Shown piece after piece: positions 8,087-12,840 of a stretch of 40,268 bases of DNA. Position 1 is the first letter of the stretch; every line of letters begins with the position of its first letter. The position numbers were made by a program, and so were the translations under genes. Source of the stretch: Alphaproteobacteria bacterium. GTDB lineage: Bacteria; Pseudomonadota; Alphaproteobacteria; UBA9219; RFNS01. Under the pieces are notes generated by a model, which searched no databases, was not told the DNA's origin, and saw nothing but the letters and a program-made list of their open reading frames with translations. The stretch lies in the NCBI GenBank assembly GCA_016124955.1, contig WGMR01000010.1:1-40268 (forward strand). Reading direction: 5' to 3'.

Positions 8087-10492
8087 TTAGTTGTAATCCT
8101 CGCCCGGGTCGCGGCCGAACACTTCGCGCTTGCCCACATGGTTGGCGGGGCTGATCACGCCCTCTTTTTCCATGCGCTCGATCAGCGTGGCGGCCTTGTT
8201 GTAGCCGACCTGGAAGTGTCGCTGAATGAAGCTGGTCGATGCCTTGCGCTCGCGCAGCACGAGATCGACCGCGCGGTCGTACATCTCGTCGCCCGAACCG
8301 CCGCTCCCGCCGCCCATGTCGCCGAACATGCCGCCGCCGCTGTCATCTTCCTCGGTCACCTCGTCAAGGTATTCGGGTTCGCCCTGCGCCTTGAGGAAGC
8401 TCACGATCGCCTCGACCTCGTTGTCGCGCACGAAGGGCCCGTGCACGCGTGTGATGCGCCCGCCGCCCGCCATGAACAGCATGTCGCCCTGACCGAGCAG
8501 CTGTTCGCCACCCTGTTCGCCCAGAATGGTGCGGCTGTCGATCTTCGATGTGACCTGGAAGCTGATGCGCGTGGGGAAGTTAGCCTTGATCGTGCCGGTA
8601 ATGACATCGACGCTGGGCCGCTGCGTCGCCATGATCAGGTGAATGCCGGCGGCGCGCGCCATCTGCGCCAGCCTTTGCACCGCAATCTCGATCTCCTTGC
8701 CGGCCACGAGCATCAGGTCCGCCATTTCATCGACGATTACGACGATGTAGGGCAGCTCGGTCAGATCGAGCGGCTGTTCTTCGATAATCGGCTGCTCGGT
8801 TGCCGGGTCGTAGCCCGTTTGCACCTGCCGCATCAAATCTTCGTTGCGGTCGCGCGCCTGCTTGAGGCGCATGTTGTAGCCTTCGATGTTGCGCACGCCC
8901 AGCTTGGACATGGCGCGGTAACGTTCTTCCATCTCCCGCACCGTCCATTTCAGCGCGACAACGGCCTTGCGCGGCTCGGTCACCACGGGCGCGAGCAGGT
9001 GGGGGATGCCTTCATAGACCGAAAGCTCGAGCATTTTGGGGTCGATCATCACGAAGCGGCATTTTTGCGGCGAAAGCCTGTACAGAAGCGACAAAATCAT
9101 GGTGTTGACCGAAACCGATTTGCCCGAGCCCGTGGTGCCCGCCACAAGCAGATGCGGCATGCGCGCCAGATCGGCCACAATCGGCTGCCCCGCGATGTCC
9201 TTGCCGAGAATGAGCGGCAGCGAGGCTTTTGCGTCCACGAATGCATCGGTCATCAGCAGTTCGCGCAGGTACACGATCTCGCGATTCTGGTTGGGCAGCT
9301 CGATGCCGATCACGTTGCGGCCGGGCACGACCGCGACGCGAACCGAAGCCGCGCTCATGGAACGCGCGATATCGTCAGCGAGCGCAATCACGCGCGCGGC
9401 GCGTATGCCGGGGGCGGGTTCCAGTTCGTACAATGTTACAACCGGCCCGGGCGATACGTTGGTGATGGTGCCGCTGATGCCGAAATCGGATAAAACGCTT
9501 TCCAGCAATTTGGCGTTTTGTTCCAGCGCCGCTTCCGATATTTCGCGCGGACGCAGCGCGCCTTCGGGCATATGCAAAAGTTCGAGCGGGGGGAGCTGCG
9601 TTTCGGTGTCGCCGCTCAGCATCAGGCGCGCTTGCCGTGCCGAAGCCGCCGCGCGGCGCACCATCGGGCCCTTGCGCGGTGCGGGTGCGCGCGCCGCGGC
9701 GGGTTCTTCATCCTCCGCCTCGTCGTCTTCCTCAGCGGCGGGGGATTCGTTCAAGTAATCTTCGGCCGCCTGTTCGCGGCTGCGGCGCAGCATGTGCCAC
9801 ACCATCATCGCGCCGCGGCTGGCATGGCCGAAAAGCCAGAACGCGCCGCGCCTGATCGCCTGCCCCGCCGCCATCCATTCGCCCAAGGTCAGCGCGCATG
9901 CCATATAGGCGGCGGCAAACGCGATCACCAGCGATCCGCCGGCGATGGCATAGCCGCCCCACAATTTTGGCAAAAGCCCCGCCAGCTTGCCCGCCAGCAG
10001 CTGGCCTATCGCGCCGCCTATGGGCCGCATGACGGCGCTTTCGCCGCCGCCCGTAACCGGGAACAGGGCGCCGAGCGCGATCGCAAGCGCGATCAACGCG
10101 ATCGCGGTGGTGACGGCGCGTCCGCCAAGATGATCAAGCCCGCGGCGGCGCGCGATGCGCCAGCCCCACGCCGCCAGCACAAGGCACAGCAGGTAGGATG
10201 AAAACCCGAAGAATTGCACCAGAATATCGGCAACATGGCTGCCCGCTTCCCCAAGCCAGTTGGCGACCTGCGCCGTATCGGCGGCCGGCGGGGCGGTATT
10301 CCATGAAGGATCGGCCGGGCTGTAGCTGAAGATTGCCGCAAAGCACAGCAGCCCGAGAAAAATTACGGCGCCGCCGATTATGGTTGCGACATTGTCCGCC
10401 ATTTGTGAGCGCAGATCGGACGGCAGGATGGGCGACCCGCGGCGCCGGCCCTTGGGGGAATAGGATGTGCGAATGACGGTGCGTGCGGGCAT
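8087..10492 (-). CDS. ftsK: DNA translocase FtsK
   Basis: FtsK anchors at the division septum and pumps chromosome ends towards dif for resolution. The 801-residue form has an N-terminal membrane domain (hydrophobic segments at about 34-58, 88-111, 125-146 and 180-204), an acidic/alanine-rich linker (about 240-300), and the RecA-like motor. The motor has Walker A AGTTGSGKS at 451-459 and Walker B IVVIVDEM at about 583-590. A C-terminal winged-helix gamma domain recognises KOPS sites (last 65 residues, SFIQRHFQVGYNKAA). The linker is short compared with E. coli FtsK. I used the ATG at 10492; a TTG at 10501 is in frame. Confidence 0.96.
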   Translation of the reverse strand: MPARTVIRTSYSPKGRRRGSPILPSDLRSQMADNVATIIGGAVIFLGLLCFAAIFSYSPADPSWNTAPPAADTAQVANWLGEAGSHVADILVQFFGFSSYLLCLVLAAWGWRIARRRGLDHLGGRAVTTAIALIALAIALGALFPVTGGGESAVMRPIGGAIGQLLAGKLAGLLPKLWGGYAIAGGSLVIAFAAAYMACALTLGEWMAAGQAIRRGAFWLFGHASRGAMMVWHMLRRSREQAAEDYLNESPAAEEDDEAEDEEPAAARAPAPRKGPMVRRAAASARQARLMLSGDTETQLPPLELLHMPEGALRPREISEAALEQNAKLLESVLSDFGISGTITNVSPGPVVTLYELEPAPGIRAARVIALADDIARSMSAASVRVAVVPGRNVIGIELPNQNREIVYLRELLMTDAFVDAKASLPLILGKDIAGQPIVADLARMPHLLVAGTTGSGKSVSVNTMILSLLYRLSPQKCRFVMIDPKMLELSVYEGIPHLLAPVVTEPRKAVVALKWTVREMEERYRAMSKLGVRNIEGYNMRLKQARDRNEDLMRQVQTGYDPATEQPIIEEQPLDLTELPYIVVIVDEMADLMLVAGKEIEIAVQRLAQMARAAGIHLIMATQRPSVDVITGTIKANFPTRISFQVTSKIDSRTILGEQGGEQLLGQGDMLFMAGGGRITRVHGPFVRDNEVEAIVSFLKAQGEPEYLDEVTEEDDSGGGMFGDMGGGSGGSGDEMYDRAVDLVLRERKASTSFIQRHFQVGYNKAATLIERMEKEGVISPANHVGKREVFGRDPGEDYN

Positions 10493-10570
10493 GGGGCTCA
10501 ATACTGCTTGGGCGAATCAATGCCTGCAGCTTAATGCAAAAACCCGCTTTTTATCAAAAGCAAAGGGGGA

Positions 10571-11464
10571 TCAGGTCTGTACGACCGACAAATGAGGCTT
10601 GTCCTGTGCCCGGGCGGTATTTTCCTGATCCGCCGGGGGTGCCGGGGGCAGGGGGTTGAGCGAGAGAATTTCAAGCACATGGCCGGTGCCATCGAGGCAG
10701 GCGGTGAGCAGGGGGCCTTTACCCTCCCGCGTATCGAGCGTGAGCGTGGCGTCGCGCACATCGAGCCCGAGCCCCGCCGGGTCGAAACCGCGCACGATGC
10801 GGTTGAAGCCCTGGCATTCGCCCGTGATGCGGCCAAAGCCGTGGATGCCGGACCATAACGCCTCGCCCTGATCGCCGAGGCTTTTGGAAGGGTCGAAGCC
10901 GCCGGGCACAAGCACCAGCCCGCGCGGCGTGCCGCCGGGGCTCGTGGTGTATGCGGCGCGGCGCATGGCGCTGGCGATCTGTTCGTGCCCGGCGAATTGC
11001 CGCACCTGCTGGCGCAGGCGGCCGGTCCAGCGTGTCATGGTCGGTACGCCCGAACGCACGATGCTTTGCGCTTCGGCCAGCGTAAGGCCGTAACCGGTTA
11101 GGTAAATATCGGCGCCGTCATCGAACAACCGTTCGATTTCCCGCTCCGGTTCGCGTGCAAACGGAATGCGGAAAAGCTTTTGCCATGCTTCTTCGGCGCG
11201 GCCGCGCAGATAGACGAAATCGCGCGCTTCCATACCCGGCCGCATCAAAAGCGTGCGGCGGAACAGCAACATTTCATCAATGGCCGAAAGCCCGTGCGCG
11301 GCGCTGGCGTAGCCGCCCATATAGACGATACGGTCACCCGGCTCGACATGGTCGATCAGAAAATCGTGCAGCTGCATCAAGCGCGGCGTATCGCCATACA
11401 GGCAGCCCACCGCCCAGACGCGCCGCGGCTGCCCCAGCGCTATGAATTTCTCATCCACCTGCAT
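10571..11464 (-). CDS. calcineurin-like phosphoesterase-fold protein without metal ligands (probable pseudoenzyme)
   Basis: The 297-residue product aligns by pattern with bacterial PPP-type serine/threonine or Ap4A phosphatases, but each signature appears altered. GDxHG is GCLYG at residues 20-24. GDYxDRG is GGYASAA at 50-56. GNHE is GRAE at 88-91. The late HAG block is P187-G-G, and GHTP is GFDP at 226-229. The surrounding hydrophobic strands and the end pattern (DATLTLDTREGKGPLLTACLD) are kept, so the fold is probably intact. Catalysis by the two-metal mechanism looks impossible. The ORF is undisturbed, so this is not a decayed gene; a binding or regulatory role is inferred. It lies upstream of ftsK on the same strand, with about 80 bases between. 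Confidence 0.75.
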   Translation of the reverse strand: MQVDEKFIALGQPRRVWAVGCLYGDTPRLMQLHDFLIDHVEPGDRIVYMGGYASAAHGLSAIDEMLLFRRTLLMRPGMEARDFVYLRGRAEEAWQKLFRIPFAREPEREIERLFDDGADIYLTGYGLTLAEAQSIVRSGVPTMTRWTGRLRQQVRQFAGHEQIASAMRRAAYTTSPGGTPRGLVLVPGGFDPSKSLGDQGEALWSGIHGFGRITGECQGFNRIVRGFDPAGLGLDVRDATLTLDTREGKGPLLTACLDGTGHVLEILSLNPLPPAPPADQENTARAQDKPHLSVVQT

Positions 11465-11584: not shown

Positions 11585-11620
11585 GGCAAAAAGAAAGGGC
11601 GGGATTTCTCCCGCCCTTTT
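11585..11620 (-). terminator. rho-independent terminator of carD
   Basis: A GC-rich stem, GGGCGGGA/TCCCGCCC with loop TTTC, is flanked by A-runs on one side and T-runs on the other, so it can work on both strands. It lies 33 bases after the carD stop, where the minus-strand T-run TTTCTTTTT follows the stem. Confidence 0.85.
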
Positions 11621-11652: not shown

Positions 11653-12177
11653 TCAGGCCGCCTTTTTCATGCGTTCCTTGGTGAGGATCGTTTCGATCTT
11701 CTCCGCGGCCTTGGTCTGGTCGGTCTTTTCGACGGCGGCCAGTTCACGGGCCAGGCGTTCCAGCGCGGCCTGATAGATCTGGCGTTCGCTGTAGCTCTGT
11801 TCCGGCTGTTCGGTGCCGCGGTGCAGATCGCGCACCACTTCGGCGATCGACACGGGGTCGCCCGAATTGATCTTGGCTTCGTATTCCTGCGCGCGGCGGC
11901 TCCACATCACGCGGCGGACCTTGACCTTGCCCTGCAGCGTGCCCATGGCGTCGCGGATACGGTCCTTGGAGCTGAGACGGCGGAGACCGGCGGTCTTGGC
12001 CTTGCCCACGGGAACCTTGAGGCGCATGCGATCCTGTTCGAACATGATCGAATAGAGCGAAACGCTCGCGCCGGCGATCGCAAAGTTTTCCACGCCTTCA
12101 ACGCGGCCCACACCATGGGCCGGGTACACGACGTAATCACCCTTCTTGAATTCAACCTTATCTGCCTTGCTAGCCAT
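11653..12177 (-). CDS. carD: CarD-family transcription regulator
   Basis: The N-terminal domain is the RNA-polymerase-interacting fold shared with the TRCF/Mfd RID. It is recognisable from FKKGDYVVYPAHGVGRVEGVE at about residues 10-30 followed by LKVPVGKAKTAGLRRL. The C-terminal helical DNA-contacting domain includes the basic RVMWSRRAQEYEAKI segment. The length (174) is normal for alphaproteobacterial CarD, which acts at promoters, including rRNA promoters, to stabilise open complexes. A strong AGGAG precedes the ATG. Placement near fdxA is common in alphaproteobacteria. Confidence 0.93.
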   Translation of the reverse strand: MASKADKVEFKKGDYVVYPAHGVGRVEGVENFAIAGASVSLYSIMFEQDRMRLKVPVGKAKTAGLRRLSSKDRIRDAMGTLQGKVKVRRVMWSRRAQEYEAKINSGDPVSIAEVVRDLHRGTEQPEQSYSERQIYQAALERLARELAAVEKTDQTKAAEKIETILTKERMKKAA

Positions 12178-12498: not shown

Positions 12499-12840
12499 TC
12501 AATTGCCTTCGCCGGGCTTGTCGCTGAAATGATTGGCAAACTTTTCCTCAACGTCTTTCCATTGGTCGGCGTCTTCGGGGGCTGGTTTCTTACGGGTTAT
12601 GTTGGGCCACTTTTCGGCATATTCCCGGTTCATTTCCAGCCATTTTTCGGCGGCCTGCGAATCGTTGTCGGAAATAATGGCTTCAGCCGGGCATTCCGGT
12701 TCGCACACACCGCAATCGATGCATTCATCCGGGTGGATCACAAGCATGTTTTCACCCTCGTAGAAGCAATCTACGGGGCAAACTTCCACGCAATCCATGT
12801 ACTTGCACTTGATGCAGGCTTCGGTAACGACGTAAGGCAT
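12499..12840 (-). CDS. fdxA: seven-iron ferredoxin FdxA
   Basis: The 113-residue ferredoxin has the Azotobacter FdI-type pattern. C9, C17 and C50 are placed to bind the [3Fe-4S] cluster, and C21, C40, C43 and C46 the [4Fe-4S] cluster; C12 and C25 are extra cysteines. The C-terminal half ([16 protein letters not shown]) is the conserved extension of this type. It is a cytoplasmic low-potential electron carrier. AAGGG stands about nine bases before the ATG. Confidence 0.95.

Follow-up and report, generated by a model that had tools for sequence, protein, structure and literature searches.

The window analysed here, a stretch of 40,268 nucleotides from an alphaproteobacterium (contig WGMR01000010.1), encodes a protein with the predicted fold of the PPP phosphatases in which none of the metal-binding and catalytic residues of these enzymes is left. 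The protein belongs to an old family that is found across the Alphaproteobacteria, and we consider it probable that this pseudophosphatase is a non-catalytic binding protein, with its partner most likely in transcription initiation. The gene, its motif positions and its neighbours are given in Table 1.

Table 1. Location of the pseudophosphatase gene, its motif positions and neighbouring features in the window.
Feature	Position	Strand	Remarks
ftsK	8087..10501	-	Identified by Pfam; 69 bases downstream of the pseudophosphatase gene
Pseudophosphatase gene	10571..11464	-	PPP fold, 297 aa, ATG at 11464
Motif VI position	10709..10741	-	Residues 242-252, TLDTREGKGPL
Motif V position	10778..10789	-	Residues 226-229, GFDP for GHTP; family consensus V-V-R-G-F/Y-D-P
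Motif IV position	10898..10906	-	Residues 187-189, PGG for HAG; family VHAG or VPAG
Motif III position	11192..11203	-	Residues 88-91, GRAE for GNHE; family consensus L-R-G-x-Q-E-E
Motif II position	11297..11317	-	Residues 50-56, GGYASAA for GDYxDRG; family consensus G-N-Y-L-G-x-G
Motif I position	11393..11407	-	Residues 20-24, GCLYG for GDxHG; family consensus A-A/S-I-H-G
Predicted intrinsic terminator	11594..11619	-	11-pair stem, T tail; after carD, before the pseudophosphatase gene
carD/cdnL, RNA polymerase-binding transcription factor	11653..12177	-	Pfam CarD_C, CarD_TRCF_RID; conserved upstream neighbour
fdxA-type ferredoxin	12499..12840	-	Named from sequence; part of the conserved fdxA-carD neighbourhood

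The original prediction described an intact reading frame, and the frame is indeed found exactly at the place given and is uninterrupted over its 297 residues. An alternative start, a GTG at 11458 that is used by many homologues, may apply instead of the ATG. Homologues of the window protein were found in 32 of 58 related genomes (E≤0.001), the differences from the nearest relative amount to 0.36, 0.33 and 0.59 at the first, second and third codon positions, and the GC3 of the gene resembles that of the neighbouring genes. From these observations, we conclude that the open reading frame is a real coding sequence.

According to the AlphaFold2 model (pLDDT 93, pTM 0.90, 71 aligned sequences), the window protein has a PPP-phosphatase fold over nearly its full length. 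The structural comparison with PPP phosphatases that had been proposed as a check gave matches to 2qjc (Z 18.1), RLPH2 (Rhizobiales-like phosphatase 2, 5vjv, Z 17.8), lambda phosphatase (Z 16.0) and ApaH (Z 14.9), with 197-226 residues aligned in the PPP matches at Z 16-18. Against a small search set, the profile of the family matched intact PPPs with E-values of 7.6e-25 to 2.4e-11; the value in a whole-genome search was 6.7e-22, and by this sequence profile the family and the intact PPPs share descent. The best PDB sequence match of the profile was again RLPH2 (E 0.0025). No model in Pfam or NCBIfam matches the window protein, and among 27 family members compared with these databases, three gave a weak match to Metallophos_3 (best E 0.0094). 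NodI, Abi_C and other weak matches of single members were judged to be due to chance, as were the matches to MCM5, the only ones obtained in a single-sequence PDB search. A search for viral relatives found none, and the plasmid homologues are distant metallophosphoesterases with less than 30% identity. The host genome contains three separate Metallophos matches and thus appears to encode ordinary phosphoesterases alongside the dead gene.

All five motif readings of the original prediction (motifs I to V) proved correct, and 0 of the seven metal and catalytic residues at the GDxH, GDxxDR, GNHE, H(A/G)G and GH positions are left in the window protein. Both arginines of the two-arginine phosphate clamp of PPP enzymes (defined in PMC8249667) are replaced as well, with A55 and S205 in their positions. 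The sixth motif reads TLDGGCGxGGPL in the family and IDTGAxxxGxLT in intact PPPs, and its DGGCG is kept by most of the family. In the columns aligned to the family motifs, intact alphaproteobacterial PPPs carry GDIHG(R), GDYVDRG, GNHE, VHAG and HGHT. Since the family profile aligns with these enzymes over nearly the full length, the substitutions stand at truly equivalent positions, and the correspondence is not accidental. Judging from these residues, the pseudophosphatase would have no catalytic activity.

A manual count gave family members, with E-values below 1e-50, in 134 of the 385 alphaproteobacterial genomes in the sample. They are well separated from ordinary PPP paralogues, which matched with E-values of 7e-22 and weaker, and no family match at 1e-12 was found in the 74 genomes sampled from other classes of the phylum. 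Among the 129 distinct sequences of the family, six have kept three of the seven residues, 52 have kept two, 50 have kept one and 21 have kept none. The equivalents of D20 (the motif I Asp) and N75 (the motif III Asn) are missing from all 129 sequences, while that of D49, the bridging Asp, is present in one; clamp Arg53 is kept nowhere, clamp Arg162 is kept once, and the motif IV His is present in 59. Family members with two His, to which the window protein does not belong, may show residual metal binding. In the phylogenetic tree, the family lies on one side of a branch that divides it from the intact alphaproteobacterial PPPs (SH-aLRT 100), and its position as one clade apart from these enzymes indicates that the loss is old. 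The alignment and the tree show that one bacterial PPP lost its two-metal centre, its catalytic His and its two-arginine clamp once, before the family spread. The changes noticed in the window gene are thus real, but they are a class-wide family trait rather than peculiar to one gene. They are fixed among the homologues, none of which has more than three of the seven residues, and a search for intact homologues at the same locus found none. Members from family f3 (L004, L010, L034 and relatives) have a C-terminal extension of 45-60 residues with a conserved YEREAANDFH-like stretch, which is absent outside f3; the tail of the window protein is shorter and unrelated.

The genomic neighbourhood suggests where a partner may be sought. 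In 83 of 113 loci, the gene is preceded by a carD gene of the same orientation, and these are all the loci for which carD was found nearby; fdxA is usually located 5' of carD. The CarD protein of the window has Ala-Ala at its C-terminus, a degron of the kind that directs Caulobacter CdnL to clearance by ClpXP during starvation, and this C-terminus is shared by 71 of the 83 CarD proteins that adjoin the pseudophosphatase family. Downstream, about 43 loci have rpoH, which encodes sigma-32, no more than 500 bases away and in the same orientation, and 21 loci have a convergent M48-type protease gene, named from its sequence. Since many families have carD on one side of the gene and rpoH on the other, a partner in transcription initiation is most likely, and CarD/CdnL-RNA polymerase or sigma-32 would be the first candidates, a physical link being suggested by this neighbourhood. 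The ftsK neighbour emphasized in the original prediction is genuine, but it occurs in nine loci, all from the order of the window or its close kin, whereas the class-wide neighbours are carD/CdnL and often rpoH. A partnership with the chromosome translocase was therefore rejected as a general role.

Of the 83 loci with carD nearby, 65 have a predicted terminator behind carD, as compared with 8 of 83 shuffles, and the window has one as well. Terminators after the pseudophosphatase gene show no excess, with 5 of 43 against 3 before rpoH and 1 of 9 against 1 before ftsK. This pattern argues for transcription apart from carD, and an operon with carD was rejected for most loci. A transcript shared with the downstream gene rather than with carD appears more likely, and in the order of the window the gene and ftsK downstream of it would probably form one transcript. 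A caveat comes from the Rhizobiales, whose rpoH1 genes have promoter signals no further than 80-100 bases from the gene start (PMC4843759). In one locus of a genome that lacks the family (L203, G065 C8:47000-58000), fdxA, carD, rpoH and the M48 gene stand in a row, with no room for a pseudophosphatase gene between carD and rpoH; such adjacency without the pseudophosphatase means that the neighbourhood could be an inherited order.

A closer tie to carD would exist if the protein were a dedicated partner of CarD/CdnL that, itself dead as an enzyme, would bind CarD and adjust transcription from CarD-dependent promoters. A precedent is CarG of Myxococcus xanthus, which is encoded directly after carD, is inactive as a protease and associates with CarD in a complex (PMC8156234), so that a dead enzyme from a gene beside carD can be a cofactor of transcription. 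The frequent position of the pseudophosphatase gene directly after carD on the same strand is consistent with such a role. We nevertheless regard it as unlikely, given the predicted terminator between the two genes and their separation in whole clades, such as family f3. In 25 further loci for which the upstream sequence was long enough, carD is not adjacent, and in those of these genomes that were checked, it is located elsewhere. Furthermore, Myxococcus CdnL binds RNA polymerase only and not CarG (PMC8156234), and the fold of CarG is unrelated. A possible (p)ppGpp-sensitive adaptor for the degradation of CdnL by ClpXP has been raised (PMC11034885). That the family is a class-wide regulator of transcription or proteolysis with CarD/CdnL and/or sigma-32 as its targets, for instance as this adaptor, seems improbable to us.

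For a binding protein with a partner in transcription initiation, which we prefer, the former active-site face would be a pocket that is free of metal, is lined by conserved Arg, Glu and Asn and holds a protein or a ligand. Precedents for scaffolds made from a dead phosphoesterase fold are VPS29 and the B-subunits of eukaryotic DNA polymerases. Conservation in the family is highest in the loops of the former active site (mean entropy 1.10, versus 1.89 in the core; block permutation p 5e-5), which suggests that the pocket has been reused. It thus indicates that the old pocket face still matters in the family, though probably not as a metal site. The same loops would also fit a repurposed fold, that is, a metal-independent or differently coordinated enzyme using Arg225, Glu91/Glu92, Asn51 and His residues, and the newly fixed residues in LRGxQEE, VVRGFDP and GNYLG, together with the mostly retained DGGCG, favour this explanation. 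Such an enzyme is quite unlikely, however, as the family of the window replaces several of these residues (Y23, G51, A90, DTREGKG) and the gene persists, and the literature searched yielded no PPP-fold enzyme without a metal centre.

The original prediction also held that the loss looked selected and not like decay. Simple decay is at odds with 129 distinct sequences that all lack the residue set, with the single clade of the family and with dN/dS values of 0.04-0.13 between close family pairs, the window gene itself being without a close relative. Purifying selection is observed for these close pairs, and the fold appears to be retained under it across the family. The members from f2 (L029 and L030) have a very long branch (1.93), yet dN/dS between the pair is 0.088. 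The view of the loss as selected has to be qualified, in that catalysis was lost once, long ago, and the window lineage changed further. A recent pseudogene was rejected on account of the intact frame, the conservation of the family and the selection on it.

The further change in the window lineage is seen in departures from the family consensus at Y23, G51, A90 and P187 and in DTREGKG for DGGCGxGG. The pseudophosphatases of the window and of G003 are 53% identical, the FtsK proteins 60% and the CarD proteins 84%. No family member was found in G002, a genome of 95% estimated completeness in two contigs that belongs to the same family as the window, and a loss in that lineage is likely. The corresponding locus (L202, G002 C2:457000-470000) has kept fdxA and carD, without a pseudophosphatase gene and without ftsK beside carD. 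The additional departures and the missing member in G002 indicate that the constraint in the window lineage may be looser, and the role of the protein may be weaker there. It is very unlikely that the family role has been lost or weakened to the point that the gene is being lost and its frame survives by chance, an explanation for which these departures at pocket positions, the absence from G002 and the long branches in f1 and f2 would speak, but against which stand a frame intact at such divergence, an identity to G003 of 53% against 60% for FtsK, the excess of differences at third codon positions, the low dN/dS of the f2 pair on its even longer branch, and the confidently predicted fold.

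The open-access literature searched contains no described bacterial PPP pseudophosphatase and nothing on this gene, and the pseudophosphatases it does describe are eukaryotic. The class-wide family is thus apparently undescribed in this literature. As a bacterial PPP-fold family that occurs in about one third of the sampled alphaproteobacterial genomes, beside genes for transcription factors, it offers a target for studying a role of the phosphatase fold that is free of chemistry. A label of 'metallophosphoesterase' assigned on the fold alone would be wrong for such proteins.

The family resembles bacterial PPP phosphatases of the lambda phosphatase type in fold, in the order of motifs, in the positions of loops and in the C-terminal DTG/DGG motif, and differs from them in its lack of metal ligands, catalytic His and two-arginine clamp and in forming a separate clade. 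RLPH2, which matches in both sequence and structure, differs in that its aligned stretch keeps canonical motifs I and II (VGDIHG and LGDYCDRGP). CarG resembles the family as a dead enzyme whose gene comes directly after a carD gene, but it is a metzincin-like zinc protein without the PPP fold and is translationally coupled to carD, while a predicted terminator usually intervenes between carD and the pseudophosphatase gene, which argues against a simple copy of the CarG system. The retromer subunit VPS29 belongs to another branch of the metallophosphoesterase superfamily than the PPP enzymes. VPS29 is an inactive phosphatase fold that serves as a protein-binding scaffold (PMC7539009); it differs from the present family in being eukaryotic and in still binding metal ions. 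The B-subunits of eukaryotic DNA polymerases, which differ by their OB domain, their place in eukaryotic replication and their phosphodiesterase rather than PPP branch, contain a phosphoesterase domain with inactivated catalytic motifs that is now a scaffold (PMC4996933).
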